A stretch of 35,497 nucleotides of DNA, taken from NCBI GenBank assembly GCA_024275045.1, contig JAJRZX010000002.1, positions 1 to 35,497 of the forward strand, read 5' to 3'. Below are positions 1-19,592 of this stretch, in pieces (positions within the stretch are counted from its first letter, which is position 1; the number at the start of each line of letters is the position of its first letter). This DNA is from Deltaproteobacteria bacterium. Its GTDB lineage: Bacteria; Desulfobacterota; GWC2-55-46; JADFVP01. The position numbers and the translations under genes were made by a program. The notes under the pieces were generated by a model. That model saw nothing but the letters and a program-made list of their open reading frames with translations, searched no databases and had not been told where the DNA came from.

Positions 1-290
1 ACCGCATGAACGGAACATTTATTATGAACGGTCCCTTCTGCCGTAAAGGCGTGGAGATAACCCCGAGGATTATTGATGTTACCCCCACAATACTGTACCT
101 TATGGGTCTCCCGCTCTTAGAGGATATGGACGGACGCGTTCTGGAAGAGGGCATAACCGCCGAGTACTTGAATTCGCACACCATTAAAAAAACTACCTCC
201 ATGGAGCACAACTCCAGCGGGGAGATATTCTCAGACGAGGACGAGACAAGGATAAAAGAGAGCCTTAAAGGGCTTGGATACCTCTCATAA
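1..290 (+). CDS. Alkaline-phosphatase-superfamily protein, C-terminal end (partial)
   Basis: Only the last 95 or so codons are in the window; the reading frame is open to the left edge, with a codon boundary at base 3. The visible part closely matches the C-terminal ends of the phosphatase-like genes at 313 and 3038. It has an Arg-Met-Asn-Gly stretch where those have the metal-binding His-Arg-x-Asp/Glu-Gly, then a VTPTILYLMGLPL segment, then an acidic tail ending LKGLGYLS. The metal-ligand His expected just before the Arg lies outside the window. The family (type I phosphodiesterase/nucleotide pyrophosphatase-like) hydrolyses or transfers phosphoryl groups using two metal ions. The substrate is unknown. 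It is the first of three such paralogues in this operon, and its stop is 22 bases before the next start. Confidence 0.85.
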   Translation, partial: RMNGTFIMNGPFCRKGVEITPRIIDVTPTILYLMGLPLLEDMDGRVLEEGITAEYLNSHTIKKTTSMEHNSSGEIFSDEDETRIKESLKGLGYLS

Positions 291-312
291 AATTAGTAAG
301 GAGTTTTACCTT

Positions 313-1968
313 ATGAACAAGAAGCGTACACTTATTATCGGTCTTGACGGTGCGACCTTTGATATTATAAAGCCAATGGTCGCTGACGGAAAGCTGCCCA
401 CATTTACCAAACTTATGAAAGAGGGGGCTTGGGGGCCCTTGAGGTCCACCATACCACCGCTTACTCCTCCTGCCTGGACATCTTTTATGACGGGCAAGAA
501 CCCGGGTAAGCACGGGGTCTTCAGCTTCTATACTCAGCCTCCGAAAGGCAGCCATGAGACTGGGATGATATCCGGAAAGACAATCAAGGCGCGTAAAATC
601 TGGGATTATTTTGATGGTGAGCGCGTGGGGCTTATTGATATTCCCATGACCTATCCTCCGGAGGAGATAAACGGGTGCATGATATCAGGTTGGCCGGTGC
701 CATCTGATGACTCAATCTTTACTCATCCGCCTGAGCTGCATACTGAGATTATCAGGGAAATCGGCGAGTACATGATAGACCGTACCCTTGCCGGCCTTGG
801 CGGCGGACCCGTTGACATGTTACGGCACCTTTACAGCTATACTGATATGAGAAGGGACGCGGCCCTTTATATGCTTAAGAACAAGGGGCCTTTTGATTTT
901 TTCATGGTTGTTTTCAGGAGCACGGATTTTATCCAGCACGAGGCCTTTAAATTTTACGATGAGGAGTACGCCTCTAAACACAAGGAGCTTACGAGAAAAT
1001 TTAAATGCCTCATACCTCAGTTATACGAGAGAATAGATACTGTAATGGCCGAGGTAATCGAGGCCATGGGAGAAGACGCCATTACCCTGGTAATGTCCGA
1101 TCATGGTCTTGGGCCCATGAAAAAAAGATTTTACATAAACAGGTGGCTTAGAGAGGAGGGGTTTGTTGTAACCAAGCGCGGCGGTATTCATATGAGCAAG
1201 AGACCCCTTGAGGACTTTATTGCCCGCAGCCCCGTATCCAAGGTCAACCGCCTGCTTCCGCAGTTCCTGCGGGAGGTAAACGTGCCGTACCCGCGTCAGA
1301 ATAAAAAAACGGCCTTAACCCATCTTGTGGATTGGACAAAGACAACCGCCTTTGTAATCCCTCCGTGGAAGGACGGCATGGTGCGTGTGAATCTGAAAGG
1401 CAGGGAGCCCCATGGTATTGTAGAGCCTCGGGACTACGAGAGGGTGGTAGATGATGTGATAAAGAGGTTTCTGGCCTTGACAGACCCGGAGACAGGGGAA
1501 AAGGTCTTTGAGGCCGCTTACAGGAGAGGCGAGATTTACAGCGGCCCATACGTGGATAAAGCCGCAGATATTGTAGTCATAGCCAAGGACGTGAGCCATA
1601 TAATCAGCTCCGACCTTGGCGAGGGGCCCATACTGGAGAAACCTGATAACCCGGCCCCCGCGCCTCACAGGATGGACGGCATACTGCTCATGCACGGTGA
1701 GGGGATAAAGGCCGGTGAGGAGCTTGGCGGTCTTAATATTACCGACATAGCGCCTACGGTTCTTTATCAGATGGGCAGACCCATCCCCGAGAGCATGGAC
1801 GGCAAGCTAATGGCTGATGGTATATGCGATGATTACCTTAAGGCCAACCCTCCTGTGTACTGCAAGGAAGCCGATGGCTCCGAGGTGCAGGAGGGGGGGG
1901 ATGATTTTACGGATGAGGAGAAGGAGAGTATCAAGGATGGGCTGAAGGCACTGGGGTACATGGATTAA
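313..1968 (+). CDS. Alkaline-phosphatase-superfamily phosphodiesterase/phosphatase-like protein
   Basis: This is a 551-residue protein. I chose the ATG at 313 because a good ribosome binding site (AAGGAG, near 298-303) precedes it; an earlier in-frame ATG at 274 overlaps the upstream gene. Two-metal residues are visible: Asp12 (IIGLDG), the likely nucleophile Thr51 (LTPPAW, followed by TGKNPGKHG), Asp205 and His209 (TDFIQH), Asp263-His264 (SDHG) and His452 (APHRMDG). There is no signal peptide or membrane segment, so it is probably cytoplasmic. The C-terminus ends in LKALGYMD, like its neighbours. It lacks the C/S-x-P-x-R formylglycine motif, so it is not a classical sulfatase. The setting among glycosyltransferases suggests a role in making or editing a phosphorylated sugar or lipid-linked intermediate. 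The substrate cannot be read from the sequence. Confidence 0.9.
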   Translation: MNKKRTLIIGLDGATFDIIKPMVADGKLPTFTKLMKEGAWGPLRSTIPPLTPPAWTSFMTGKNPGKHGVFSFYTQPPKGSHETGMISGKTIKARKIWDYFDGERVGLIDIPMTYPPEEINGCMISGWPVPSDDSIFTHPPELHTEIIREIGEYMIDRTLAGLGGGPVDMLRHLYSYTDMRRDAALYMLKNKGPFDFFMVVFRSTDFIQHEAFKFYDEEYASKHKELTRKFKCLIPQLYERIDTVMAEVIEAMGEDAITLVMSDHGLGPMKKRFYINRWLREEGFVVTKRGGIHMSKRPLEDFIARSPVSKVNRLLPQFLREVNVPYPRQNKKTALTHLVDWTKTTAFVIPPWKDGMVRVNLKGREPHGIVEPRDYERVVDDVIKRFLALTDPETGEKVFEAAYRRGEIYSGPYVDKAADIVVIAKDVSHIISSDLGEGPILEKPDNPAPAPHRMDGILLMHGEGIKAGEELGGLNITDIAPTVLYQMGRPIPESMDGKLMADGICDDYLKANPPVYCKEADGSEVQEGGDDFTDEEKESIKDGLKALGYMD

Positions 1969-3029
1969 TGGCCGGGCTTGAGGACATAAGACGCGCGAAG
2001 AGGGTGCTTTTCGTGCATCAGTTTCTTGCCATGGGAGACGCCCTCTTTCTCTCTCCGGTTTACAAGAACATCAAAGACAATGTGCCCGGTATAAAGATAT
2101 ACGTACTTACCAACAGGTACTCCGCGCCTTTTGTAAAGTCCATTCCATATGTGGACGGGGTCTATGATATTCAATCCCTTATGGGCGGGCGTTTACGCCT
2201 TGTAAAGTTAGTAAAGTTCTCTCTCTTTTTTTTAAAGGCCCGCCTTGATACCATAGTCCTTCGCGGCGATGAGCGCATGCCCCAGCGGGCCATAGAGATG
2301 GCCGCAAAGGTATGCGGACTTAAGAGGGTTGTTCTTGGCCCTTATCTTGTTAAAGAGGTGCGAGAGGACCGGCACATTGTAGAGACCTATTTAAAGATTC
2401 TCGAGGCCGCGGGTTTTAATATAGAGGAGCGCGGCAGATTGTATGTAGATGTTCCGGCTTCTTCCGTTAATGAGGCCAAGACATACCTTGGAGGAGAGAC
2501 AAAAAACCTTGTGGGCATGGCGCCTACAAGTAATATGCAGGTAAAGAACTGGGCCCCTTCAAAGACAGCGGAGCTTATCAGAGGGCTAAAGGATATGTCC
2601 TTCGAGGTCCTGCTCTTTTCTGCGGATGAGAGTTTTGTAAAGGAGGTTCTAAGCCTCGTAGAGGTAAAGGTTATCGGCATTGTTGATTTCCAGCTCCTTA
2701 CGGGTATAGTATCTAAGTGCCGGGGGTTTATCGGTGTTGATACAGGGCTTACCCACCTTGCCACTGCTCTCGGGGTTCCAACCGTAGGTCTTTACGGGCC
2801 TACATCGGAGAACGTAACAGGGCTTTACGGTACCGGCAACATGGCCCTCCACGACCACCGCGACTGCCCCTACTACAGCCCCACCGCCCCTTTTGATCCA
2901 AAGAAGAAAAAACAGGAGTGTTACTCAGAGGACAAATGCAAACTTCCCATTACCAACTGTCTTGAAGGAATAGGCGTTGCGGACGTAACAAAAGCCTTCT
3001 TAAAATTACAGAACAACATTAAGGGTTAA
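1968..3029 (+). CDS. Glycosyltransferase family 9 (heptosyltransferase-like)
   Basis: This 353-residue protein has the two-domain GT-B layout of the ADP-heptose:LPS heptosyltransferase family. The N-terminal domain carries AMGDALFLSPVY (residues 21-32), matching the GD-x-L-x-x-x-P loop. The C-terminal half has MAPTSNMQVKNW (184-195) and the sugar-nucleotide site GVDTGLTHLATALGVPTVGLYG (256-277), with Asp258 and His263. Such enzymes work in the cytoplasm at the inner membrane and add a sugar, often heptose, to a lipid-linked glycan. The start overlaps the upstream stop (TAATG), which implies translational coupling with the phosphatase-like gene. The next phosphatase-like gene starts 8 bases downstream, so this gene sits between two paralogues. 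The donor sugar is not certain. Confidence 0.9.
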   Translation: MAGLEDIRRAKRVLFVHQFLAMGDALFLSPVYKNIKDNVPGIKIYVLTNRYSAPFVKSIPYVDGVYDIQSLMGGRLRLVKLVKFSLFFLKARLDTIVLRGDERMPQRAIEMAAKVCGLKRVVLGPYLVKEVREDRHIVETYLKILEAAGFNIEERGRLYVDVPASSVNEAKTYLGGETKNLVGMAPTSNMQVKNWAPSKTAELIRGLKDMSFEVLLFSADESFVKEVLSLVEVKVIGIVDFQLLTGIVSKCRGFIGVDTGLTHLATALGVPTVGLYGPTSENVTGLYGTGNMALHDHRDCPYYSPTAPFDPKKKKQECYSEDKCKLPITNCLEGIGVADVTKAFLKLQNNIKG

Positions 3030-3037
3030 TAAAAGAT

Positions 3038-4696
3038 ATGGATAAGGTTATTGTAATAGGGCTTGACAGCGCGACCCTGGATATAATTCTTCCTATGGTC
3101 AAGGAGGGCAAACTGCCCAATATGGCCTCCCTTATGGAGGGCGGGTCCTGGGGTAATCTGCTCTCCACGACCCCGCCTGTAACGCCTCCTGCGTGGGTCT
3201 CTTTTATGACAGGCAAGAATCCCGGCAAGCACGGGGTCTTTGATTTTTACGTACCTCCCACTTACGGTTACATACGCCCCATACTTAACTCCAAGTACAT
3301 AAAGGCCAAGACTATCTGGCGCATACTCACGGACCTTAAGTACAGGGTTGGGGTAATCAACCTGCCCATGACGCATCCGCCTGAAAAAGTAAACGGCTTT
3401 ATGATACCCGGTGTGCAGTACTCTTTTGACGGCAAGGCTTTTTCTCATCCCCCGGAGCTTATGGAGGAGATTCAGAGTAAGTTCGGCGAGTACCGCGTGC
3501 TCTACGGTAACATGGAGAGCCTTTATACCAATGACCTTGATGAGTTCTTGGGTGAGTGGCGGCAGATTTTTGAGATGAGAAGAAAGACTATTCTTTATCT
3601 TATGGATAATAAAGAGTGGGATGTCTTCATGCCCGTGTTCTACAGCGTTGATGTGATGCAGCACCACTTCTGGAAGTTTTTCGACCCCAAGCACCCGCTT
3701 CACAATAAAGCCCTGGCAGGTAAATACGGAGGTATTATCCCGGAGTTTTACGAGATGGTGGATTCCGTTATCGGAGAGGTCCTGGAGAGGGCCCCCGGGG
3801 CAACGGTTGTGCTGCTCTCTGATCACGGAGCAGGGTCTGAGGAAGAGGGTTTCTCGGTAAACAACTGGCTTGCAAGCGAGGGTTTTTTGTCTTTTAGAAA
3901 ATCTTTTTCTCCTCTTCGTAAATTCCGCTGGCCTCATGTTGTGTACAAGGCGCTTAGGAGGCTGAAGTTTCCCGGGATTGGCTGGACAGTGCCCATGGCC
4001 AAACTAAAAACCCTTGGCGCAGCCGTAGACCCCAGAGAGGGGTTAAATGTGGCGGCCTTTATTAACTGGGATAAGACCGTTGCCTATGGCGGCAACCATA
4101 CGGAGCAGGGAATCTATATAAATCTAAAGGGGCGTGAGCCGGGCGGCATAGTTGAGAAGGGCACAGAGTACGAGGAGCTGAGGACTAAGATAATGGATAG
4201 GCTCCGTGAGGTAATCGACCCCTCTACGGGCAAGAGGCTTGAGGTTGATATCTGCCGCAAGGAAGATGTTTATCACGGCCCCTGCATAGACGACGCCCCT
4301 GATATCTTTGTCTTTATGAAAGACGGCAAGTGTCTTATGCAGAAGGAGATTTATCACAAGGGCTTTTTTCACCGCGCGTTCAAGAGCTCGGGCACTCACA
4401 GGCCCGAGGGCATGTTTATCGTAAAGGGCAAGGGTGTAAAGCAGGGTAACCGCGTGGAGGGAGCGAGTATAATTGATATCGCGCCAACGCTCTTATACAT
4501 GATGGGTCTTGCAATACCCGATGATATGGACGGCCATGTAATAGAGAGTGCCTTTAAGAGCGAGTACCTGAAGGAACACAAGAGCGCCTCCGGGCCATCG
4601 GCTGATCTTGAGGTCTCAAGAGGCGAGGGTGTGCTTGACGGCGAAGAATCAGAGAAGGTAAAAAAAGCATTAAGGGACCTTGGATACTTTGGATGA
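3038..4696 (+). CDS. Alkaline-phosphatase-superfamily phosphodiesterase/phosphatase-like protein (second full copy)
   Basis: This 552-residue paralogue matches the gene at 313 along its whole length. The metal and catalytic positions are kept: Asp10 (VIGLDS), nucleophile Thr49 (VTPPAW then TGKNPGKHG), Asp205 and His209 (VDVMQH), Asp262-His263 (SDHG) and His454 (GTHRPEG). It ends in LRDLGYFG, with the same acidic tail as the other copies. No signal peptide or transmembrane segment is visible. The middle (residues about 285-340) differs most from its paralogue, so the two probably act on different substrates rather than being redundant. Its stop overlaps the start of the PIG-L gene (ATGA), so the two are probably translated together. 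A phosphatase, phosphodiesterase or phosphotransferase activity all remain possible. Confidence 0.9.
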   Translation: MDKVIVIGLDSATLDIILPMVKEGKLPNMASLMEGGSWGNLLSTTPPVTPPAWVSFMTGKNPGKHGVFDFYVPPTYGYIRPILNSKYIKAKTIWRILTDLKYRVGVINLPMTHPPEKVNGFMIPGVQYSFDGKAFSHPPELMEEIQSKFGEYRVLYGNMESLYTNDLDEFLGEWRQIFEMRRKTILYLMDNKEWDVFMPVFYSVDVMQHHFWKFFDPKHPLHNKALAGKYGGIIPEFYEMVDSVIGEVLERAPGATVVLLSDHGAGSEEEGFSVNNWLASEGFLSFRKSFSPLRKFRWPHVVYKALRRLKFPGIGWTVPMAKLKTLGAAVDPREGLNVAAFINWDKTVAYGGNHTEQGIYINLKGREPGGIVEKGTEYEELRTKIMDRLREVIDPSTGKRLEVDICRKEDVYHGPCIDDAPDIFVFMKDGKCLMQKEIYHKGFFHRAFKSSGTHRPEGMFIVKGKGVKQGNRVEGASIIDIAPTLLYMMGLAIPDDMDGHVIESAFKSEYLKEHKSASGPSADLEVSRGEGVLDGEESEKVKKALRDLGYFG

Positions 4697-5457
4697 TTAA
4701 TCCCATTATGAAAAAAATCTACAGGAACCTTATACCGGCAAGGCTTAAGGGCTCCATAGACCTCTTTGGTCACCTTCGCATGGCAAGGCTTGAGGGGCTT
4801 GGAGAAAAGCGGGTGCTGGTACTTGCCCCGCACCCTGATGATGATATTATAGGCTGCGGCGGCACGCTCTCTTTATACCACGAGCGCGGCGCTGAGATTA
4901 CCTCCGTATACATGACAGACGGCAGAAAAGGTAACGAACGGTACGGTGAAGAGGAGCTTGTAGCCATAAGAAAAGACGAGGCCGCAAGGGCCGCCCAGGT
5001 CATTGGCGTAGATAACCTTGTGTTTCTTGATAACAGGGACAACGAGCTCTCGGCAACTGAGAGCACGGTCTCTGCGCTCCTTGAGGTAATAAAAGACTTT
5101 GCGCCGGAGGCGGTCTTTCTGCCTTTTTTACTTGATGAGCACCCCGATCATATGGCTACAAACAGGATATTTTTATCTGCCATAAAGCGCCTCCCTGAGT
5201 TTCGTTGTTACGCATACGGGGTCTGGACGCCGCTGCCCTCATTTAACGTGGTAGTGGATGTAACAGAGTCTCAGGGTATAAAGGATAAGGCGCTCCGCGA
5301 GCACGCATCGCAGCTGGAATCATTCGATTATCTGGGAGGCGTTTCCGGGCTCTCCCGATATTACTCCGCCATAACCGGCGGCAAGGGCTACACAGAGGTC
5401 TTTCTTGCCTGCGGTTCTCATGAGTACCGCAGGCTCGGGGAGTTGATGTCATGGTAA
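4693..5457 (+). CDS. PIG-L/LmbE family N-deacetylase
   Basis: This 254-residue protein has the zinc-binding signature of the PIG-L family: APHPDDDIIGCGGT (residues 45-58, with His47, Asp49 and Asp50) and a second site at DEHPDH (148-153). Family members remove an N-acetyl group from GlcNAc-containing substrates such as GlcNAc-phosphatidylinositol, mycothiol or bacillithiol precursors, or antibiotic intermediates. In this operon the likely substrate is an N-acetylated sugar or glycolipid. The ATG at 4693 overlaps the previous stop (ATGA); a second in-frame ATG at 4708 is possible. The C-terminus overlaps the GNAT gene by 7 bases. A deacetylase followed at once by an acyltransferase suggests that one N-acyl group is exchanged for another, but this is inference. 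Confidence 0.92.
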   Translation: MINPIMKKIYRNLIPARLKGSIDLFGHLRMARLEGLGEKRVLVLAPHPDDDIIGCGGTLSLYHERGAEITSVYMTDGRKGNERYGEEELVAIRKDEAARAAQVIGVDNLVFLDNRDNELSATESTVSALLEVIKDFAPEAVFLPFLLDEHPDHMATNRIFLSAIKRLPEFRCYAYGVWTPLPSFNVVVDVTESQGIKDKALREHASQLESFDYLGGVSGLSRYYSAITGGKGYTEVFLACGSHEYRRLGELMSW

Positions 5458-6512
5458 AGCCGGAGATTACAAGGCGTCCCTACAGGGACGGAGACGAGGC
5501 AGGGATAAATGAGCTCTTTAACAAGGTCTTTGGCCTGCAGCGCCCGCTTGAGGAGTGGAGGTGGAAGTACATTGAGAACCCCGCTGTTACCCACCCCTCG
5601 GAGTGGATAATGGTGCTTGAGAAAGAGGGGGCCATAGTGGGGCACTACGGCAGTATGCCTGTGCAGATGTTCTGCGACGGCAGTGTTGTCACTGCCTGCC
5701 AGCCCGTTGATACCATAATAGACCCTGCGGCCAAGGTGGGGATAAAGTCGCTTAGAGACCTCTTCAAGGAAGGCGTTGAGAGGGCCGCAAGGCATGCCTC
5801 CTTTGGTTTTGGTTTTCCCAATAAGGCCGCTTATAAAGTTGGGAAAAGGCTCCTTGGTTATAAAGACCTTGGCAGGATGGAGCCCTTTTACAAACGCCTA
5901 AGTCTGAGGAGCGCTTTGCAGAGAAGGCTTCCCGCCGTGCCATCGCCGCTTTTTTGGCCGGCCCATAAACTGAGTCAGGTCTACTACTCTCCCTCCATTA
6001 CAACGGGTAAATATACTGTTGAGGAGGCAGGTGAGTTCAGTGAGTCTTTTGACAAACTCTGGCATGAGCTTAAGGAGACCTTTCACATCTCCGCCATCAG
6101 GGACAGCGCTTATCTTAACTGGCGGTACAAGGGCCGAGGCTATACCATCTTTATCGTAAGGCAAGGCGATGAGGTGATGGGATACGCTGTACTTAAGATG
6201 AATGACGCGGCGGAGCAGGGGGGGCAGAAGGTTGGTTTTATAATTGATATGCTCTCAAGGCAGGAGACAGCGGGGCTGGTGCTGAAGAGGGTGATAAAGT
6301 TTTTTATAGAGAGAGACGCTGATTACTGCCTCTCTGCCGTCTCAACGGGAAGCCCCGTGGCAGGGCATCTTCGCGATGCTGGTTTTGAAGAGGATAAGGG
6401 TTTTGAGACTTTTCCCATAGTCTATGTTGGCAGGACCAAAGAGGATGAGAACGACTTTCTCATGAACCTGCAGAACTGGCACCTTACATACGGCGATACT
6501 GACGGGTATTAA
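5451..6512 (+). CDS. GNAT-superfamily acyltransferase of the polysaccharide-cluster type
   Basis: This 353-residue protein opens with ITRRPYRDGDEAGINELFNK, the usual first strand and helix of a GNAT fold, then W-R-W-K-Y-x-x-N-P, often seen in acetyltransferases of glycan clusters. A second GNAT-like half follows around residues 190-310 (DSAYLNWRYKGRGYTIFIVR). It probably transfers an acyl or aminoacyl group from a thioester or tRNA donor; the two-half layout is also compatible with FemAB-like enzymes. There is no signal peptide. It overlaps the PIG-L deacetylase by 7 bases, and the next gene starts immediately after its stop. The pairing makes re-acylation of a freshly exposed amine plausible. 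Donor and acceptor are unknown. Confidence 0.8.
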   Translation: MVKPEITRRPYRDGDEAGINELFNKVFGLQRPLEEWRWKYIENPAVTHPSEWIMVLEKEGAIVGHYGSMPVQMFCDGSVVTACQPVDTIIDPAAKVGIKSLRDLFKEGVERAARHASFGFGFPNKAAYKVGKRLLGYKDLGRMEPFYKRLSLRSALQRRLPAVPSPLFWPAHKLSQVYYSPSITTGKYTVEEAGEFSESFDKLWHELKETFHISAIRDSAYLNWRYKGRGYTIFIVRQGDEVMGYAVLKMNDAAEQGGQKVGFIIDMLSRQETAGLVLKRVIKFFIERDADYCLSAVSTGSPVAGHLRDAGFEEDKGFETFPIVYVGRTKEDENDFLMNLQNWHLTYGDTDGY

Positions 6513-6914
6513 ATGAAGATTCTTCATATAAATCATCTTTACAGGGACTTTGGCGGGGGCGAGCGTTATCTGCTGGACCTCTGCGCCGAAGAGGAGGCAG
6601 CAGGCCACGAGACCGCTGTTATCTCATCAATCCATGAAGATAACGTACGCACCGGCAAGAGGGGCGAGTATTTTATAGAGCCCTCATTCGGGCGGAAATC
6701 AGGCAGGAGAATGGCCCCTCTTGTAGAAGACATTGTAAGTAGAGAAGCCCCTGATGTTATTCATCTCCATGAGAGTCTTGTCTTTATGAGCCCCTATATC
6801 GTAAAAAGGCTTATGAGACTCAGACCTGTTGTGCAGACCATTCATACCGCCTTTTTTTTTGCCCGAAGTCTACAAAGATACTGCCTTCAGGGGAGATATG
6901 TACCTACCCCATAG
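6513..6914 (+). CDS. GT4 glycosyltransferase, N-terminal part upstream of the frameshift
   Basis: The 133-codon frame begins MKILHINHLYRDFGGGERYL, a typical GT4 start with the Gly-Gly-Gly-Glu-Arg acceptor-side loop. It continues through DVIHLHESLVFMSPYIVKRL and VVQTIHTAFFF. Residues after about 116 (ARSLQRYCLQGR...) are out of frame with the family and are probably not part of the real protein. The ATG directly follows the upstream stop. Without the downstream part it would lack the donor-binding domain and could not be an active transferase by itself. Confidence 0.6.
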   Translation: MKILHINHLYRDFGGGERYLLDLCAEEEAAGHETAVISSIHEDNVRTGKRGEYFIEPSFGRKSGRRMAPLVEDIVSREAPDVIHLHESLVFMSPYIVKRLMRLRPVVQTIHTAFFFARSLQRYCLQGRYVPTP

Positions 6915-6970
6915 GAGCCAGATGCCTTACCGCCTGCCCCGGACGATTTAACCTCAAGCTCGGTGTACTC

Positions 6971-7690
6971 ATGTACTGGAGGGCGCTAATAACGAGACAG
7001 GTGGATAAAGTCATCGCGCCTTCAGAGTACATTAAAAAAGAGGCCCTCTTAAACGGCGTACCTGAAGACAAGGTTGAGGTAATACCGCATTTTACCATGA
7101 AGAACATTGAAGGCAGACGCAGGGAGCCCCTTGAGGGCGCAGTGCTTTTTATCGGCAGGGCCGATGCCCTAAAGGGCATAGGTGAGTTTATAAAGGCGCT
7201 GAGCCTTCTTGAGTCAGAGTGGTCTGCCGTAATCGTTGCCAGCGGAGAGAGGGAGAAGATAGCGGAGTACAGGGAGATGGCCGGCGTGCTGGGAATAGCG
7301 GAGAGGGTAGAGTTTGTAGGCGGAGTTGATTACGCCTCTCTTGATGAGTATTATCAGAAGGCCTCAGTAGTGGCCTTCCCTTCAATGAGTACGGAATCAT
7401 TTGGCCTTGTTGGGATAGAGGCCATGAGTTTTGGCCGTCCTGTTGTGGCCTTTGATTCAGGGGGTCCGGCAGAGTGGCTTAAGGACGGGGAGACGGGATT
7501 TTTACTTCGCCGCGGCGATGTGAGAGCTCTGGCCTCATCCATAAGCAGGCTCCTTACGGACATGGCGCTGGCCCGCACAATGGGAGAGCGCGCCTTTCAA
7601 GAAGTTCGCGCCTTCAGGAGCGGCCCTCATATTAAGAGGCTGATAACTCTCTATGAGGCCGCCGTATCAGGAAGGGCAGATGAGGTTTAA
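6971..7690 (+). CDS. GT4 glycosyltransferase, C-terminal donor-binding part downstream of the frameshift
   Basis: This is a 239-codon frame from the first ATG, but coding similarity starts earlier, at about 6860 in the same frame. It carries the GT4 C-terminal domain: VLFIGRADALKGIGEFIKAL, then EFVGGVDYASLDEYYQKASV, and the nucleotide-sugar site STESFGLVGIEAMSFGRPVV, with the two Glu residues of the E-x7-E motif. No good ribosome binding site precedes 6971. Independent translation is therefore doubtful, and the piece is better read as the second half of the gene starting at 6513. Confidence 0.6.
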   Translation: MYWRALITRQVDKVIAPSEYIKKEALLNGVPEDKVEVIPHFTMKNIEGRRREPLEGAVLFIGRADALKGIGEFIKALSLLESEWSAVIVASGEREKIAEYREMAGVLGIAERVEFVGGVDYASLDEYYQKASVVAFPSMSTESFGLVGIEAMSFGRPVVAFDSGGPAEWLKDGETGFLLRRGDVRALASSISRLLTDMALARTMGERAFQEVRAFRSGPHIKRLITLYEAAVSGRADEV

Positions 7691-7710: not shown

Positions 7711-8922
7711 TTGAGGATATGCATTGACGCCACTCTTCTTGGAGTGAAGACACTGGACAGGGGAGGTATTTACAGGTATCTCTACGAGCTTATCGAGTCC
7801 CTTGCGAGGATAGACAAGACAAATGATTATACGATATTTGTTAATTTTTTTAGAGGTGAGAACCTTCCGGCATTTGATAATTTCAAGAAGAACCTTTGCG
7901 TTGGCGATAACTTCAGAGTAAGACTATCCCGCTTTCCTCCAAGGCTACGCAGTATGCTTGAGCCGCCAATGGAGCTGCTGGCGGGAAGGTTCGATGTATA
8001 CCATAATGGTTTTGATTATCTGCCGCCAATGCTCCTTGGAAAGGGCATAACCACTGTGCAGGATATCCGCTACATGGAGGATATTGACCATAGCGTAGAT
8101 GATGAGTGGATAGAGGTGCTGCGGTCTAAGAGCCCTGCCCCGGAGTTCCATATACGAGATTGCCGTGCCCGAGGCGGGCTATTCGAGGAGCTGAGGTCAA
8201 GTATAAAAAAGACCGTGAAGAGGGCCTCGGCCATAATCACCTGCTCTGAGTTTACAAAGGCCAAGCTTACGGAGCTTCTCGGGGTAGATGAGAAGCGGGT
8301 TACGGTGATACCCCTTGCCGCTGACAGGCGTTTCAGGCCCCTTGATAAAGAGGAAATAAGGCCAACCCTTGAAAAGTTCAAGGTGAGTAAACCTTATATA
8401 TTTTACTCAGGTAAATTTGACCCTCTTAAAAACCTCCTTAGGCTCGTAGACGCCTTTGCAGTGGTACTTGAGTCCCATGACGTACAACTCGTATTCTCAG
8501 GGCCTGTAAACTGGTTCTATTATATAGTTATGGAAAGAGTAAAAAAACTTGGTTTAGCCGATAATTTTATAGCTACGGGCATTGTCACAGATGATGAGTT
8601 GACGGCCCTTTACAGCGGGGCCTCGGTATTTGCCTTTCCATCTCTATACGAGGGTTTTGGGATACCCCCTCTTGAGGCCATGTCCTGCGGCACCCCGGTA
8701 GTAGCCTCAAGGGAGTGCTCCATACCCGAGGTGGTGGGCGGGGCGGCGCACTTTGTTGATGCCAACTCCACGCAGGATATAGCAGAGGGGTTGTCTGCCT
8801 GTCTTGAGGATAAAGTCCTCAGGCAAGGGCTTATGGAAAAAGGCTTTGAACGAGTCAAGAATTTTACATGGGAGAAAACCGCTGAGAAGACCCTGAAGGT
8901 TTATCAATCGGTTTTAGGATAA
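7711..8922 (+). CDS. Glycosyltransferase family 4
   Basis: This 403-residue enzyme starts at a TTG at 7711, preceded by AGGAGAG (about 7698-7704). From there it reads MRICIDATLLGVKTLDRGGI, the standard GT4 beginning with a glycine-rich acceptor loop. The C-terminal half has YIFYSGKFDPLKNLLRLVDA, then the donor site FPSLYEGFGIPPLEAMSCGT, with both Glu of the E-x7-E motif. It resembles mannosyl- and rhamnosyltransferases of O-antigen clusters, but its sugar cannot be assigned. Probably cytoplasmic and membrane-associated. It lies 20 bases after the split GT4 gene and one base before the next GT4. Confidence 0.9.
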   Translation: MRICIDATLLGVKTLDRGGIYRYLYELIESLARIDKTNDYTIFVNFFRGENLPAFDNFKKNLCVGDNFRVRLSRFPPRLRSMLEPPMELLAGRFDVYHNGFDYLPPMLLGKGITTVQDIRYMEDIDHSVDDEWIEVLRSKSPAPEFHIRDCRARGGLFEELRSSIKKTVKRASAIITCSEFTKAKLTELLGVDEKRVTVIPLAADRRFRPLDKEEIRPTLEKFKVSKPYIFYSGKFDPLKNLLRLVDAFAVVLESHDVQLVFSGPVNWFYYIVMERVKKLGLADNFIATGIVTDDELTALYSGASVFAFPSLYEGFGIPPLEAMSCGTPVVASRECSIPEVVGGAAHFVDANSTQDIAEGLSACLEDKVLRQGLMEKGFERVKNFTWEKTAEKTLKVYQSVLG

Positions 8923-8923
8923 G

Positions 8924-10210
8924 ATGAAAACTCTGCTCATAGCCACGCAGCTCGATTATACATACTTTGCCAATACAAGAACGCACCATATGGTGGAGCA
9001 GTTCATTGGCAGGTTCTCGAAAATTACCGTCCTGCACAAGGCGCACCCAACGGGTAATACTTTAAAGGAGAAGATAAGGTCTTTTTTTACCATCAATATA
9101 AAGGAACGTCAGAAGACCCCCTGCTCCATCATAGAGGTATCGCCGCTCTTTAACGCGCAGAACGGCCTCGGGGTAAGCCTGCTGGGGCTTGGTAACCCCT
9201 ATGCCCTGCCTCCTTCCATATTCAAACGAATTTTACGAAGGGTCTTCAGCTCAATGGGGTTTGTACTTGAGCTCGCCATCCTGCCCTCTTTTATTCTGGC
9301 CTATCTTATAAAAGACAGAGGCAGGTACGATGTCTTTATAGGCGGCGGAGTCTGGGCCATGGCGCTGGGGTATTTACTTAAAAAGACGGGACGCGTAAAA
9401 CTTCTTGTGGTGGATGATTATGATTATTCCCCTGGTTCTCAGCCCATAAGCCGTTTCAGGCAGTGGTACACCAACCTTATTGAGATCTTGATGCTGAAAA
9501 GATCTGACCTTGTATTCTCCGTGGGAGCCCTGCTGGCAGGCCTCAGGATGGAGCAGACCGGCAAACACGTGGAGGTCATACCCAATGGAGTTAACTGCGC
9601 ACTCTTTAAGAAGAGCGCAGGGGTGAAATCCGCTCACGGGCCTACTCTTATATATGTAGGCGCGGTCGAGGGGTGGAGCGGTCTTGACATTACAATAGAT
9701 GCCCTTAAAGAGGTGCGCCAACGCATCCCGGATATTAAGCTGCTTGTAATCGGTCACGGTCCGGACCGCTACACCGAGGAGTTAAAGGGACTTGTACACT
9801 CTAATTCTCTTGATGATAATGTGGAGTTTCTTGGCATTAAAAAATACTCTGAGCTCCCCGCTTATATGGGCAGGGCTGATATAGGGCTTGCCATGTACAT
9901 GCCCATTGAGCTTAGGAAGTACGCCTTCTCTTTAAAGGTAATAGAATATATGTCCGCAGGTCTGCCGGTTATCGCTACAACGGAGACTCAGTCTGGGGTT
10001 CTTGTTGAGAGCGCAGAGGTGGGCATGGCCGTAGAGTACGAGCCCCGCGCTCTTGCCCGTGCCATACTGAGGCTTCTGGAGGATAAAGAGTTTTATAAGG
10101 AGTGCTCCGAAAGGGCCTCCAAGACAAGTGCTGAGTACGACTGGAAGAGTATAATGGAGAGGTGTTACTCACTTATTGAGAGTAGTTATGGGTCTCTTGC
10201 CGGGGATTAA
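8924..10210 (+). CDS. Glycosyltransferase family 4 (GT4-like)
   Basis: A 428-residue protein with a GT-B fold of the GT4 type. The C-terminal half shows VIPNGVNCALFKK, LIYVGAVEGWSGLDITIDAL, VIGHGPDRYTEELKG and FSLKVIEYMSAGLPVIATTE. In the last motif the first Glu of E-x7-E is replaced by Lys (K-V-I-E-Y), as seen in a known subgroup of GT4 enzymes. The N-terminal domain (LLIATQLDYTYFANTRTHHM) is divergent and has a hydrophobic stretch around residues 110-130 that may anchor it to the membrane. The start lies one base after the previous stop. The real stop is at 10208-10210, so the gene overlaps the following GT9 gene by 23 bases. Confidence 0.88.
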   Translation: MKTLLIATQLDYTYFANTRTHHMVEQFIGRFSKITVLHKAHPTGNTLKEKIRSFFTINIKERQKTPCSIIEVSPLFNAQNGLGVSLLGLGNPYALPPSIFKRILRRVFSSMGFVLELAILPSFILAYLIKDRGRYDVFIGGGVWAMALGYLLKKTGRVKLLVVDDYDYSPGSQPISRFRQWYTNLIEILMLKRSDLVFSVGALLAGLRMEQTGKHVEVIPNGVNCALFKKSAGVKSAHGPTLIYVGAVEGWSGLDITIDALKEVRQRIPDIKLLVIGHGPDRYTEELKGLVHSNSLDDNVEFLGIKKYSELPAYMGRADIGLAMYMPIELRKYAFSLKVIEYMSAGLPVIATTETQSGVLVESAEVGMAVEYEPRALARAILRLLEDKEFYKECSERASKTSAEYDWKSIMERCYSLIESSYGSLAGD

Positions 10211-11354
10211 AAAGAGTGTGAAGGAGTTTGGCTTTTTCTGCATCGAGGGGCTTGCGCCTTTTATGGCGGGAAAGGGCTTTTCTTCAAAGCACAGAGCCGT
10301 TAACAAAGTGCTGGTCTTTGCAGGCGGGGGACTGGGCGACCTTATCTGGGTGCTTCCGGCCATTACGTCCCTTCATAAGAATTATCCCCATGCCTCCATA
10401 ACCCTTCTTGCGGCCCCTTCCTCAAGCGCGGTTCTTGAACTATATCCGGAGCAGGGTATAATAAACGAGGTCATAAGCTATGAGCCCAGAGGACGGCACA
10501 GGGGACTTGGCGCCAAGCTGCTGCTTGTACGCGCACTTAGGAAAAAGGGTTTTGACCTCTCATACGCCCCGGGTAGAGGCGAGGGCATGAGAGAGGAGAT
10601 GGTTATGAATTATCTCATAGGCGCACCGGTAAGGCTTGGTTATAAACAGGGCAAGACAGGTCTGTTGAATACCTGTGCTCTTGAGATGAGCGATAACGTG
10701 CCTATACTCAGACAGAACCTTGAGATACTGAGAGCCGCGGGGTTTGAGACAACTGAAGAGAGCGTAAACCTTGAGGTGCCTCATAAGGGGATTGAGAGCG
10801 CAGAGAGTTTTCTTAAGTCTTGGGGTATAAAGAGAGGCGCTCCCTTTATCGTAATACACCCGGGCGCGGCATGGAACGCTCATCTGAAGTGTTGGCCCCT
10901 TGAGAGGTACATTGAGTTAATCAGCGCTCTTACCCGGGAGACGGGGCAGCACATAGTTGTAATAGGCAGCAAGGGGGAGATGGCCTCGGGAGAGGCGCTC
11001 TTTCGCGGGTTGGAGGGGCAGGACTTAGCAGTAAACGCCATAGGAAAGACGAGTATCCGGGAGATGGCGGGTATTATCAGCCTCTCAGGCCTCTTTATAG
11101 GTAACGACTCAGGGCCCCTTCATCTGGCGCAGGCATTTGATGTGCCCGCTGTCGCCATATTCGGCTACACCTCTCCAAAGCAGATAATCTGGAGAAAGGA
11201 CAGGTGCGTTGTTATACAACCTCGCGATACAGGGCCTCTGTATCTTCATCAGTATGATTACAGCCGTGATGCCTCTGATACCGCGGCCCTTGAGAGTATT
11301 ACGGTTGATGAGGTAATGGCAGGCGTAAGGAGGGCGGCGGCGGCCATGAGATGA
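10188..11354 (+). CDS. Glycosyltransferase family 9 (heptosyltransferase-like), second copy
   Basis: This 388-residue protein is a second GT9 enzyme, more standard than the one at 1968. It shows FAGGGLGDLIWVLPAITSLH (residues 44-63), VIHPGAAWNAHLKCWPLERY (222-241) and FIGNDSGPLHLAQAFDVPAV (303-322). I chose the ATG at 10188; an in-frame TTG at 10176 would add four residues. The start overlaps the end of the preceding GT4 gene in another frame. Its stop overlaps the next start (ATGA). The family adds ADP-heptose or a related sugar to lipid A core or to a lipid-linked precursor. Two GT9 enzymes in one operon suggest two successive heptose-like residues. Confidence 0.9.
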   Translation: MGLLPGIKKSVKEFGFFCIEGLAPFMAGKGFSSKHRAVNKVLVFAGGGLGDLIWVLPAITSLHKNYPHASITLLAAPSSSAVLELYPEQGIINEVISYEPRGRHRGLGAKLLLVRALRKKGFDLSYAPGRGEGMREEMVMNYLIGAPVRLGYKQGKTGLLNTCALEMSDNVPILRQNLEILRAAGFETTEESVNLEVPHKGIESAESFLKSWGIKRGAPFIVIHPGAAWNAHLKCWPLERYIELISALTRETGQHIVVIGSKGEMASGEALFRGLEGQDLAVNAIGKTSIREMAGIISLSGLFIGNDSGPLHLAQAFDVPAVAIFGYTSPKQIIWRKDRCVVIQPRDTGPLYLHQYDYSRDASDTAALESITVDEVMAGVRRAAAAMR

Positions 11355-12565
11355 GAGGAGCGGCCATTATATTGGATGTTCTCTTACTGGTCTCCGGGTT
11401 GGCGGCTTTTGCCATGGCCCTTTATCTCTTTGTTGTTACCGTGGCAGGTTTTTTCGCCAAATTAATCACACAAAATGTTCCCTCGAGCACAAGAATAGCT
11501 CTTATAATTCCTGCTCATAACGAGTCTCTGCTGATTAAGAGGACAATAGAGAGCATACAGGCAAGTGATTATCCCGCGCACCTCTTTGATATCTTTGTTA
11601 TAGCCGATAACTGTACTGATGATACGGCCGAGATAGCCGTGGGTATGGGAGTCAGGTGCCTTGAGAGGTTTGATGAGGATAAAAGAGGCAAGGGCCATGC
11701 CCTGCGCTGGGCCTTTGATAAAGCTGTAAGTGAGAAGTGGGATTACGGCGCTTATATTATTATAGATGCCGACAGTGTAGTCTCGGCAGTCCTTGTTAAA
11801 AGAGTAAATGATTATATAAGCTCGGGTTTTGATGCACTCTCGTGTTTTCATATGGTGCAGGGCTCGTCCAACTCTCCGGCCATTGATATAGTGAAGATGG
11901 GTTTCACGCTTCGTAACCTTAGAAACGCGGGCATCTCAGTGCTTGGAGGCTCCGCGCCTCTGCTTGGCAGCGGGATGTGTTTTTCCGGCCGGCTTGTGCA
12001 GCGGTACGGCTGGTCTGCTTTTTCCCTTACAGAAGACCGTGAAGAGTGGGCCTTTCTCTATTCAAAGGGCGTAAAGGTGGGGTATATACCTGACGCAAAG
12101 GTTTACTCCGAGATGCCCGGTGCCGTAAAAGACCTTGAGAATCCCATGGCAAGGTGGGATGTTGGGCGTATGAATATTACCACTCGTTTCTTGCTGCCCT
12201 TTCTCTCTCGTCTAAGAAGCGAGAAAAGCCCTGGTGCTCTTTTAACCTTACTGGAGCTTATAACTCCGCCGTTTACCCTGATTTTATTCTCCATAGGGCT
12301 GGGCATGGTCATTGCGCTGGTCCTGCATAATCTTATAAGCCAATATACCGTAGCGCTCTGGGTGGTTGCTCTCTCTCTTATGTCTGTATCAGCCCTGCTC
12401 GGTCTTATCCGTATGAAGGCCCCTCTCAGGAACTACCTTAATCTCTTTATATTCTCCGTATTTCTTGTGCCCTGGAGGGTATTGAATTTCACAAAAGGGG
12501 CCTTTGGAAAGAGAGAATGGCGCCGCACCGCGAGAGAAGAATCCACAGATAAGGAGGCCGAATGA
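11351..12565 (+). CDS. Membrane glycosyltransferase family 2
   Basis: A 404-residue inner-membrane GT-A enzyme. An N-terminal membrane segment (about residues 5-33) precedes the catalytic domain: IIPAHNE (52-58), DNCTDDT (86-92), DAD (139-141), the acid-rich TEDREEW (227-233) and a processive-like NPMARWDVGRM (264-274, the position of the QxxRW motif, with the Gln replaced). Two or three further membrane helices follow (about 305-328, 334-354 and 362-378). The overall order resembles processive synthases of the cellulose/hyaluronan/PgaC group and non-processive relatives. It may therefore extend a chain or add the first sugar. Coupled by ATGA to both neighbours. Confidence 0.9.
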   Translation: MRGAAIILDVLLLVSGLAAFAMALYLFVVTVAGFFAKLITQNVPSSTRIALIIPAHNESLLIKRTIESIQASDYPAHLFDIFVIADNCTDDTAEIAVGMGVRCLERFDEDKRGKGHALRWAFDKAVSEKWDYGAYIIIDADSVVSAVLVKRVNDYISSGFDALSCFHMVQGSSNSPAIDIVKMGFTLRNLRNAGISVLGGSAPLLGSGMCFSGRLVQRYGWSAFSLTEDREEWAFLYSKGVKVGYIPDAKVYSEMPGAVKDLENPMARWDVGRMNITTRFLLPFLSRLRSEKSPGALLTLLELITPPFTLILFSIGLGMVIALVLHNLISQYTVALWVVALSLMSVSALLGLIRMKAPLRNYLNLFIFSVFLVPWRVLNFTKGAFGKREWRRTAREESTDKEAE

Positions 12566-13683
12566 TAAAGGTACTGCATGTCTCGGCCACCTCAACGGGA
12601 GGCGTGGGACGAAACCTCCTGCTTCTTGCAGAGCACGTGGACCGCAGTCTTTTTGAGCTCTCATTTGCCCTGCCCGAGGACAGTCATTTTTTTAAGGAAA
12701 TTGCCGATACCGGTGTGAGGGTATTTCGCCTTCCCATCTCAAGGCGCCCGCTTAAACCCGTTAACATAAAGGGTTATAGAGAGATAAAGAGGCTGATGAG
12801 AGGGGGTGAGTTCGACCTTGCCCATATGCATACGGCTGTTGGCGGTTATCTCGGCAGGCTTGCTGCTGCGCGTCTGGGCATACCCGCGGTTTGGAGCATA
12901 CATGGCTGGGCATTTAATTACCCAAGAGGCAGCAGGGCGTACAGGAAGACGCTCTTAATGCTTGAGAGCTGGATAGATAAATATACAAAACACTATGTTG
13001 CCGTATGCGAGAATATGCGGGATCTTGGAATTGAAAAAAGAGTTTGCAGAGCAGATAAAGTTACGGTAATATACAACGGCGTTGATGCCGGCAGCATAAA
13101 CAGCGGAGCCGTGAATATACGAGACGAGCTGAATATTCCCGGTGACGTTCATATCATAGGGGCGGTAGGGCGTTTTGAGGAGCAAAAAGGCTTTGATACC
13201 TTTATCGAGGCCGCCGCGATTATCAAAAAAAGATTTACTGATGTTAAATTCCTTCTTGTTGGAGACGGGCCGCTGAGGCCGCAGATAGAGACCGATATAT
13301 CGAGATTGGGTCTTTCCGGGGATTTTATACTTCCCGGCTGGCAGTCCAATGTGGCTGATTATATAAATACAATGGACATCTTCTGCCTTTCCTCAAAGTG
13401 GGAGGCCATGCCCTTTATCGTACTTGAGGCCATGGCTATGGGTAAACCCATTGTGGCTACAGAGGTAGGCGGAGTAGGCGAGATTCTTGGAGAAGAAAAC
13501 TCAGCTTTTCTTCTCCCGCCTGAAGACCCGGCGGGACTTGCCGGGGCTATGTGCGGATTTTTAGAGGACGGCGAGTTACGCGCTAAGTTTGGCAGGTTAA
13601 ATCGGACAAGGTTAGATTCAATCTTTAATCTGCAAAGGATGATCACCAGCTATGAGAGACTTTATGAGAAAATCCTTAGTTAA
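12562..13683 (+). CDS. Glycosyltransferase family 4
   Basis: This 373-residue protein begins MIKVLHVSATSTGGVGRNLL, with the acceptor loop Gly-Gly-Val-Gly. The C-terminal domain contains VIYNGVDAGSIN, IGAVGRFEEQKGFDTFIEAA, FLLVGDGPLRPQIETDISRL and SSKWEAMPFIVLEAMAMGKP, which holds the E-x7-E donor motif. It looks like the common O-antigen/exopolysaccharide GT4 enzymes; the sugar is unknown. The start overlaps the GT2 stop (ATGA), and its last 20 or so bases overlap the start of the exported GH39-like gene. Confidence 0.92.
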   Translation: MIKVLHVSATSTGGVGRNLLLLAEHVDRSLFELSFALPEDSHFFKEIADTGVRVFRLPISRRPLKPVNIKGYREIKRLMRGGEFDLAHMHTAVGGYLGRLAAARLGIPAVWSIHGWAFNYPRGSRAYRKTLLMLESWIDKYTKHYVAVCENMRDLGIEKRVCRADKVTVIYNGVDAGSINSGAVNIRDELNIPGDVHIIGAVGRFEEQKGFDTFIEAAAIIKKRFTDVKFLLVGDGPLRPQIETDISRLGLSGDFILPGWQSNVADYINTMDIFCLSSKWEAMPFIVLEAMAMGKPIVATEVGGVGEILGEENSAFLLPPEDPAGLAGAMCGFLEDGELRAKFGRLNRTRLDSIFNLQRMITSYERLYEKILS

Positions 13684-15883
13684 CGTCTTTATTGTTATGC
13701 TTCTCTTATGTGCGCCTGTCCTGGCTTTTGGGAGCGTTACTAAGATTACCATAGATGCGTCCAAGACCTACGGGCCTGTGCCCGAGGTTTTTGCAAGCAG
13801 TATCTGGCTCCATCATCTGGATAATAATGATATATATACGCTCACTAAATTGTTTAGAGAAAACAGGCCCAGAGATATTCGTTTAAGCATGAGTGTGCTG
13901 CAGATCTCTAAGAGTTTTGAGGATTACAAGAAGCTGCTTAAAAAGTACTTTGATGGCAGGCCCACCAAACTGCTTATGGGTAAGGTTAATAAATACAATA
14001 TCCGCTTAATAGTTGATTTTGACGCCTGTCCCATGCCGGCTTGGCTGTCCTCAAGGCCGGGGAATATGCAGCCGGCCTCCGGTTGGGGATATAGTATACA
14101 GACATGTTCGCCGCCAAAAGATTTCAAGCTCTGGGGCAAGGTAGTCATGTATACATTAAAGGCTTTTAGCGATAGAGGCGTAAAGAGCCTTGGTCTCAAC
14201 GTTGGACATGAACAGGAAAGGGAGTGGGTAGGCGATGAGAAGAGTTTCTTTAAATTCTATGAATACGCGGCGCGCGCGGCAAAGAGGCTTGACGGTAATA
14301 TAAAGGTAGGCGGCCCCGGGGCCTCTGGTTGGGACGTGAAAAGGCTTGGGTGCTCAGGGTATCCTGCCGCCGCCAAGAAAATATGCAAACAAGAGGGCGG
14401 GTGGAGCGATCCTGAGGGAGAGACCTTTATTAAAAACTTCATAGATTATGTCGCCACTAACGGCGACGGGACAACGCGCGTACCTCTTGATTTTATAAAC
14501 TGGCATTCTTTTGGTCCAAGCACGGCTACTTTCAAGACCAACGCCTCTGTTATAAGAGGCTGGCTCAAGGAAAAGGGGATTGAAGGCATATATTTCTTTC
14601 CCTCGGATTGGTCGGGCTGGAGCTGGCCGCCATACCCCTCGGATAGTATTGATACCGAGGAGCTTGCCTCTTACATCCCGCAGGCCCTTCAGGTAATGTG
14701 GGACTCAGGCATAAAATGGCAGGGCCACGACTTCAATGTCTACAGCTCCCTTGAACAAGAGGTTATAGACAGACGTAACGGAAGCACCTTTATCGGTGAT
14801 TGGGGCCTCTTTACGCGTCATGGCGCCATGGGAGGAGGGATTATAAAGCCCGGTTATAATGCCTTCAGGCTTGTGAGCTTGATGGCCGGTCTTGATAATG
14901 AGAGAAAAATGCTGCGTCCAAAAATGTTTAGTTACGATAGAGTAAAGGCACTATCAACTCTGGACGTGGACGGCAGCGCTGTTTATGTGCTTTTGAGCAA
15001 TAATCTGGCCACTGGTAAAAAGTTTTTGCCCTTATTCGCAGCGGAGTTAACTGATTTTATGATGGAATCCGGGTTGGAGACAGAGGCGGATTGGTTTCAT
15101 GATGCCATAAAGGAGTACCGTAAAACCAAGACTGTTTCTTCTCAGGGCTCTGCTCAGAAAAAAGAATTGCTCCGCTATCTTGGAAAGAGTCTCAAGTGCA
15201 GAGGCCGCGAGAATCCTGAGACCTGTGAAAAAGACGCGGCACGGGGATTAAAGTATCCTGCCACCTTAAAGATACGAGAGATTGTCAGCACCTTAATAAA
15301 CGCCCAAAAGCCCAGAGACATAAGAGTAGATATAAAAAACCTGGGTCTTAGCGCCAAAGCCACCCTTGTATCCTATACCATTGATAATGTTTCTTCGAAC
15401 GCCTGCTCTTATAACAAGAGAACGGAACCGAAAAAGACCTCGGCTCCATGCGGCATTGATGGCGCCGTGGACAAGAAGGTAAAGGCCGCCGCAAAGGTCG
15501 CTTCGCTCAAAGGACAGAGGGCGGCAAAAGAAGAGCTGGTGAAGCAGTTCGGTCCTGCCGAGGCGGGGGCGATACTGCGCCGTGTGAAGGAGTGCAAACA
15601 GGGCGGGGCCGGCATGAAGGAGTGCATTGAAAAGTCTTCCTCAGAAGGGCAGTCCAAAGGTATAAGGGCCTCTCTTCGGCGCAGCATAGACGTGCGCGGC
15701 AAGGAATACTATCGCCGTATAGACGCCATAAACAATCTTCCTGAAATCTCCATTGATGGTTCAAGGCGCGTAGAGAAGATTTATGTGACAGACGGTCATG
15801 CAGAGATAAAGGTTAGATTAAAACCTAACTCTGTTGTGCTTTTCATCTTGAAAAAAAATACCGGAGTAAATGCAAAGCCATAG
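13664..15883 (+). CDS. Exported GH39-like glycoside hydrolase-type protein with altered catalytic residues
   Basis: This 739-residue protein starts with a signal peptide (MRKSLVNVFIVMLLLCAPVLAFG). I chose the ATG at 13664, which has GAGAG six bases upstream; an ATG at 13652 would add four residues. The middle resembles GH39 (beta-xylosidase/iduronidase type): VGHEQEREWVGDEKSFFKFY (residues 180-199) lies where WNEP is expected, followed by KVGGPGASGW, FINWHSFG (277-284), IYFFPSDWSGW (309-319) where TEW is expected, and GDWGLFTRHGAMGG-x-x-KPGYNAF. The acid/base Glu183 is kept, but the Asn before it is His and the nucleophile Glu appears to be Asp. Two long charged inserts interrupt the C-terminal beta region, which still ends VVLFILKK. 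Probably periplasmic or secreted, trimming or binding the glycan made by this operon. Confidence 0.75.
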   Translation: MRKSLVNVFIVMLLLCAPVLAFGSVTKITIDASKTYGPVPEVFASSIWLHHLDNNDIYTLTKLFRENRPRDIRLSMSVLQISKSFEDYKKLLKKYFDGRPTKLLMGKVNKYNIRLIVDFDACPMPAWLSSRPGNMQPASGWGYSIQTCSPPKDFKLWGKVVMYTLKAFSDRGVKSLGLNVGHEQEREWVGDEKSFFKFYEYAARAAKRLDGNIKVGGPGASGWDVKRLGCSGYPAAAKKICKQEGGWSDPEGETFIKNFIDYVATNGDGTTRVPLDFINWHSFGPSTATFKTNASVIRGWLKEKGIEGIYFFPSDWSGWSWPPYPSDSIDTEELASYIPQALQVMWDSGIKWQGHDFNVYSSLEQEVIDRRNGSTFIGDWGLFTRHGAMGGGIIKPGYNAFRLVSLMAGLDNERKMLRPKMFSYDRVKALSTLDVDGSAVYVLLSNNLATGKKFLPLFAAELTDFMMESGLETEADWFHDAIKEYRKTKTVSSQGSAQKKELLRYLGKSLKCRGRENPETCEKDAARGLKYPATLKIREIVSTLINAQKPRDIRVDIKNLGLSAKATLVSYTIDNVSSNACSYNKRTEPKKTSAPCGIDGAVDKKVKAAAKVASLKGQRAAKEELVKQFGPAEAGAILRRVKECKQGGAGMKECIEKSSSEGQSKGIRASLRRSIDVRGKEYYRRIDAINNLPEISIDGSRRVEKIYVTDGHAEIKVRLKPNSVVLFILKKNTGVNAKP

Positions 15884-19458: not shown

Positions 19459-19466
19459 GTTATATG

Positions 19467-19512
19467 TGCTTCGGGGGCAGTTCTTGAGACTGTCCTCGAG
19501 GCATTTATTTTA
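19467..19512 (+). terminator. Rho-independent terminator after protease copy 1
   Basis: The left arm at 19467-19481 pairs with 19489-19503 along all 15 positions (12 Watson-Crick, 3 G-T) around a 7-base loop. The tail TTTATTTTA follows at once. It lies 9 bases after the stop. Confidence 0.85.
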
Positions 19513-19592
19513 TCATACAAGTCTCCATGGCTTGTAAACACTCTATAGTGATTCATTTAAAGTAATGCCTTAATATAGGGATACGGAAAATC

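Follow-up and report, generated by a model that had tools for sequence, protein, structure and literature searches.

What reaction could several soluble members of the alkaline phosphatase (AlkP) superfamily, a textbook case of enzyme evolution, carry out in a surface-glycan operon? Superfamily members with a role in surface glycans or lipids include the LtaS/EptA-type membrane phosphotransferases, which have transmembrane helices and an extracytoplasmic catalytic domain, whereas the enzymes described here have no such helices and their reaction would be cytoplasmic. They are encoded in a 35,497-base stretch of DNA from a Deltaproteobacteria bacterium (hereafter the window), which is the complete contig C7 of a 2.28 Mb genome assembly (G000; 156 contigs, 99% complete). 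Two full-length genes, AlkP1 (positions 313-1968, 551 amino acids) and AlkP2 (3038-4696, 552 amino acids), flank the gene of a heptosyltransferase-like glycosyltransferase of family 9 (GT9; 1968-3029), all head to tail and, like the remaining glycan genes, the two further AlkP genes and cysD-cysN of the window, on the forward strand. The initial annotation had placed three paralogues, one of them partial, around this GT9 gene: two are complete and flank it, and the third (3-290) is the last 95 codons of a gene lying upstream of AlkP1 and cut by the first base of the contig. We hold with moderate confidence that AlkP1 and AlkP2 are competent soluble cytoplasmic two-metal enzymes and fixed parts of a conserved surface-glycan operon, in which they would act on lipid-linked intermediates or precursors.

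The membership of these proteins in the superfamily can be judged from profiles, residues and models. AlkP1, AlkP2 and a fourth gene missed by the initial annotation (AlkP3, 450 amino acids, 21989-23341) match the Pfam family PF01663 (Phosphodiest) with 134 bits (E 1.2e-38), 124 bits (E 2e-35) and 138 bits (E 8.7e-40), respectively, the curated cut-off being 23 bits. AlkP1 and AlkP2 are 38% identical over their full length and, as had been noted before, dissimilar in their central regions. Residue conservation was counted (in AlkP2 numbering) in an alignment of 201 relatives, which we divide into type I (149 sequences of about 550 amino acids with a C-terminal LGY tail, including AlkP1 and AlkP2), type II (41 sequences of about 450 amino acids, including AlkP3) and type III (11 sequences of about 460 amino acids). 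The six metal ligands (D10, D205, H209, D262, H263 and H454) are nearly universal across the three sub-types; each is kept in at least 145 of the 149 type I relatives and all are present in both AlkP1 and AlkP2. Both also carry the nucleophile T49 in a TPPAW context, and this position is Thr or Ser in 145/149 type I sequences, Ser in 41/41 of type II and Thr in 11/11 of type III. The shared LGY tail pointed out earlier is real and typical of type I (135/149), being absent from the two sister types (0/41 and 0/11), AlkP3 included. The partial copy has this tail and matches the C-terminus of AlkP2 at 36-38% identity, but the claim that the metal residues and TPPAW occur in all copies does not extend to it, as it starts one residue past the C-terminal metal His, with no metal or nucleophile site visible; a search of the genome for the rest of this gene found no other copy.

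The AlphaFold2 model of AlkP2, built from 57 sequences, has a predicted local distance difference test (pLDDT) score of 93.8 and a confident AlkP fold, with no structural sign that the metal sites fail to form, and that of AlkP3, built from eight sequences, scores 88.2. In Foldseek searches of the PDB, the AlkP2 model matched ENPP1, Xac NPP and ENPP6 (E ~1e-15), and the best matches of the AlkP3 model were phosphonoacetate hydrolase and ENPP1. By their predicted fold, their six metal ligands and their Ser/Thr nucleophile, these proteins belong to the AlkP superfamily, with a predicted ability to bind metal. As for their location, no segment of AlkP1 or AlkP2 exceeds 1.65 on the Kyte-Doolittle scale (19-residue window), none of the 201 members has any above 1.9, and the first beta strand of the AlkP2 model begins at residue 4, too close to the N-terminus for a signal peptide to precede it. 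The earlier statement that AlkP1 and AlkP2 have neither signal peptide nor membrane helix is thus borne out, and a cytoplasmic place is likely for both.

Which branch of the superfamily is this? With the nucleotide pyrophosphatases/phosphodiesterases (NPP/ENPP, such as Xac NPP and ENPP1) these proteins have PF01663, the AlkP fold and the two-metal ligands in common, and their Thr nucleophile occupies the equivalent position. They differ in the absence of a signal peptide or membrane anchor, in an identity of 12-14% in the structural alignments and, above all, in the active site: Asn111 of Xac NPP, which hydrogen-bonds the phosphate (the roles of the NPP active-site residues are described in PMC3145672), aligns with F70, and this position is Phe in 193/201 members, while the NPP His four residues past the nucleophile is replaced by Trp (W53) in 198/201. 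With both replacements family-wide, these enzymes are relatives of the NPPs, not ordinary NPPs. Phosphonoacetate hydrolase (PhnA) is the best PDB profile match of the family (E 1e-12), as well as the top structural match of AlkP3, but its genomic context is another one and the TIGR02335 scores (29-32 bits) lie far below the equivalog cut-off of 408. The S1 sulfatases, although members of the superfamily and alignable in their C-terminal part, carry the formylglycine motif Cys/Ser-x-Pro-x-Arg where AlkP1 and AlkP2 have TPPAW. The family probably corresponds to COG3379, a predicted phosphohydrolase or phosphomutase.

In order to see whether the arrangement recurs, 84,980 species genomes were scanned, yielding 541 confirmed relatives and 78 loci chosen by type I AlkP sequence alone (locus numbers carry the prefix L). 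The nearest relatives of AlkP2 (48-63% identity) are found in Brocadia, Loosdrechtia and other Planctomycetes, in Nitrospirae, in Magnetomicrobium and in one Desulfobacteraceae genome. Seven loci (L058, L059, L060, L061, L063, L065 and L118) hold, whole or in part, a module in the order AlkPX, beta-propeller protein (PQQ_2/Beta-prop_ACSF4), AlkP1, GT9, AlkP2, PIG-L, GNAT and GT4, with some shifts of order and some losses, and in several loci a Wzx flippase gene lies upstream of it. The beta-propeller protein, of about 510 amino acids, lies within the module in L058, L060, L061, L063, L065 and L118. In the window, the GT9 protein (PF01075, E 2.7e-24) has orthologues of 37-48% identity in the same module, and AlkP2 is followed by a PIG-L family de-N-acetylase (4693-5457; PF02585, E 8.6e-32), whose orthologues (48-58%) adjoin AlkP1/AlkP2 elsewhere, and by a GNAT-like acyltransferase (5451-6512; PF13527, E 1.4e-6; module orthologues 34-42%). 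In a maximum-likelihood tree, AlkP1, AlkP2 and AlkPX form three separate clades, with supports of 99, 99 and 98 in the Shimodaira-Hasegawa-like approximate likelihood ratio test; this rules out a recent tandem duplication, and the paralogues are therefore ancient and retained. Their retention side by side suggests that they serve distinct functions within a single pathway. We also considered whether the partial copy represents the AlkPX lineage, as synteny would have it, but its 95 residues do not favour this lineage and are too few to decide.

Counting neighbours over the 78 loci, which is descriptive and without a random-locus control, at least one core glycan gene is found in 62/78 and tandem type I pairs in 27/78, with a maximum of five type I copies in any one locus; among the 116 nearest same-strand neighbours there are 14 GT2, 13 Wzx, 12 GT4, eight LPG_synthase_TM, seven GT9, four PIG-L and four GNAT genes. 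With these neighbours found again in other phyla, and with AlkP1 and AlkP2 each placed in a clade of orthologues, the pattern goes beyond chance. The suggestion of an unassigned step in cytoplasmic glycan assembly is in this way sustained, the linkage being to glycan genes and not to unrelated pathways. The proposed partners, GT9, PIG-L and cysDN, hold in part: GT9 and PIG-L (together with GNAT) accompany AlkP1 and AlkP2, but cysDN accompanies the sister clade of AlkP3 instead. As separate observations, the N-terminal extensions seen in L046, L053, L057 and L079, at first considered as gene fusions, look like over-extended reading frames (with a possible Gfo/Idh-like stretch at 13957-16770 of L053 as the exception), and sulfatase-family proteins are encoded in three of the glycan loci (L060, 8715-9998; L069, 12996-14267; L074, 4144-5559), that of L069 having no obvious N-terminal signal peptide and a TTTTPCAGS nucleophile region.

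Taken together, a predicted AlkP fold, intact metal and nucleophile residues, the lack of a membrane anchor and lineages co-inherited with glycan genes describe AlkP1 and AlkP2, which most likely are phosphoryl- (possibly sulfuryl-) group transferases or hydrolases. In the mechanism that we propose, the conserved Thr would attack a phosphate (or sulfate) ester bound at the two metals, forming a covalent intermediate on the Thr, and the group would then be passed on to water or, if the enzyme is a transferase, to a sugar hydroxyl. The substrate may be the polyprenyl-linked repeat unit, or an activated precursor, prior to export by Wzx; each ancient paralogue would have its own target position or sugar, and the PIG-L/GNAT pair alongside may deacetylate, and then re-acylate, an amino sugar. 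Some points weigh against this proposal. The PDB homologues of AlkP1 and AlkP2 are distant, the PhnA profile match cited above being the best, and the 25 commonest families of neighbours include no gene for donor synthesis (for instance of cytidine diphosphate-linked groups), so that the context does not identify the transferred group. Furthermore, the genomic evidence would be equally compatible with enzymes that hydrolyse a precursor or by-product.

As an alternative, the AlkPs could be sugar-phosphate phosphatases or phosphomutases, supplying nucleotide-sugar synthesis with sugar-1-phosphates or free sugars. The superfamily does have cytoplasmic members of this kind, phosphoglycerate mutase and phosphopentomutase, and the predicted function of COG3379 would also fit. 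However, the similarity to the NCBIfam model of the 2,3-bisphosphoglycerate-independent phosphoglycerate mutase is a trace (18 bits against a cut-off of 862), nucleotide-sugar synthesis genes are rarer as neighbours than glycosyltransferases and flippases, and up to five type I copies in a locus suit acceptor-specific enzymes better; we regard such a supply role as unlikely, if the least so among the alternatives. The fact that the nearest solved folds are those of NPPs would instead suggest clean-up or editing, with the AlkPs hydrolysing nucleotide sugars, by-products (adenosine monophosphate or 3'-phosphoadenosine 5'-phosphate) or misassembled polyprenyl-diphosphate sugars. A general clean-up, however, does not need several dedicated paralogues per operon, and the two NPP residues are replaced in nearly all members (Asn by Phe, His by Trp, in the numbers given above); we hold this to be the most improbable of the alternatives.

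Between these two in probability, and thus also improbable, stands an alternative that starts from the sister types: all three types would handle activated sulfate and make up a novel, glycan-directed sulfotransferase class with no kinship to the P-loop enzymes. Adenosine 5'-phosphosulfate (APS) or 3'-phosphoadenosine 5'-phosphosulfate (PAPS) would be used directly, with the sulfate on the Ser/Thr nucleophile, type II acting with CysDN and APS, type III with Sat/CysC, and the type I paralogues being derived, acceptor-specific versions which place sulfate on glycans. Of the type II genes 23/41, and of the type III genes 9/11, do have a sulfate-activation or CysD-like gene in the same orientation no more than 1.5 kb away (these loci are kin and not independent events; mapped on the tree, the label requires a minimum of 11 changes), with CysD-CysN beside AlkP3, or CysC between two AlkPs, in multiple loci; moreover, 8/78 of the loci chosen by type I sequence carry sulfate-activation genes. 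Of the three sulfotransferase families searched (PF13469, PF00685 and PF03567) none was found in G000, and the same holds for over half of the 25 AlkP-Cys genomes. On the other hand, only 3/149 type I genes have such a gene within the same distance, and ordinary sulfotransferases are present in 8/10 module-bearing genomes; in genome G020 (contig C14, 79593-93437) a glycan region holds several P-loop sulfotransferase matches, one of them between two type I AlkP genes. In addition, no APS kinase was found when sought in G000 (the 409-residue CysN of the window has no APS kinase domain fused to it), and none was detected in G406, which carries the AlkP1/AlkP2 module, so that PAPS is not a general donor for AlkP1 and AlkP2. 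Because type I is almost never near sulfate genes and PAPS is apparently not made here, sulfuryl transfer by AlkP1 and AlkP2 was lowered as the main answer and is speculative, and phosphoryl transfer or hydrolysis on glycan intermediates or precursors is preferred.

AlkP3 is another matter. In the window it lies directly upstream of CysD (23366-24169, the small subunit of sulfate adenylyltransferase; NF003587, 350 bits against a cut-off of 195) and CysN (24194-25423, the GTPase subunit; TIGR02034, 343 bits against 336). Relatives of AlkP3 occur in 55/395 genomes of the phylum, and of 40 regions taken for reading of the neighbourhood, canonical CysD and CysN stand directly beside AlkP3 in nine and CysC is adjacent to it or nearby in four; in five further regions a CysD-like protein is its immediate neighbour or separated from it by one gene (three CysD-like proteins were scored, all below the curated cut-offs). 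Besides the window, the loci with canonical CysD-CysN adjoining AlkP3 are L042, L114, L172, L174-L177, L182, L185 and L187, and the APS kinase gene (CysC) has a type III AlkP gene on one side and a type II AlkP gene on the other in L067, L127, L180, L195 and L202. Not every type II gene shows the link to sulfate activation, as divergent relatives adjoin unrelated genes (e.g. in L204, L206 and L208). Nor is the CysDN of the window the sole sulfate-activating enzyme of its genome, since contig C5 has a second ATP sulfurylase, together with CysH and a sulfate symporter. With CysDN adjacent, no APS kinase found and none of the three sulfotransferase families in the genome, APS-dependent sulfuryl transfer by AlkP3 is a testable idea. 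Three side observations concern these loci: in L185 and L187 the gene order is NusG-like, CysD, CysN, AlkP3 and Wzz-like protein; in L067, four type I AlkP genes and one for a flippase come after the CysC arrangement; and in L114, L175 and L182 PstSCAB-like ABC transporter genes lie upstream of AlkP3-CysD-CysN, possibly encoding a sulfate rather than a phosphate importer.

Both the AlkP superfamily and PF01663 are established. To judge from the literature searched, neither the glycan cassette with several lineages nor the association of the sister clades with sulfate activation has been described: no paper on COG3379, on the name "AlkP superfamily phosphohydrolase" or on a link between AlkP and sulfate activation was found in the open-access literature. 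A widespread soluble branch of the superfamily thus has no assigned job in that literature. Its cassette of ancient paralogues and glycosyltransferases points to a step still missing from the picture of how anammox, Nitrospirae and sulfate-reducing lineages assemble their surface glycans, and the tight sulfate-activation link of the sister clades offers a concrete candidate reaction.

Regarding the remaining layout of the window, AlkP1 starts with ATG, preceded by an AAGGAG ribosome site, and start and stop codons overlap at the AlkP1/GT9 and AlkP2/PIG-L junctions. The GT4 gene that follows the GNAT gene (6513-7690) is split into two frames (6513-6914 and 6971-7690) with the N- and C-terminal GT4 halves, all three frames having been read, whereas orthologous loci have a single open reading frame of about 400 amino acids; this reflects either an assembly frameshift or a broken gene. 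The rest of the glycan cluster (7711-17321) encodes two GT4, a GT9, a GT2 and a further GT4 glycosyltransferase, a GH39-like protein and a Wzy/O-antigen-ligase-like protein. Between this cluster and AlkP3 lie two subtilase genes in tandem, with a fervidolysin-like propeptide (17851-21194), and a type II secretion operon is found downstream of cysN.

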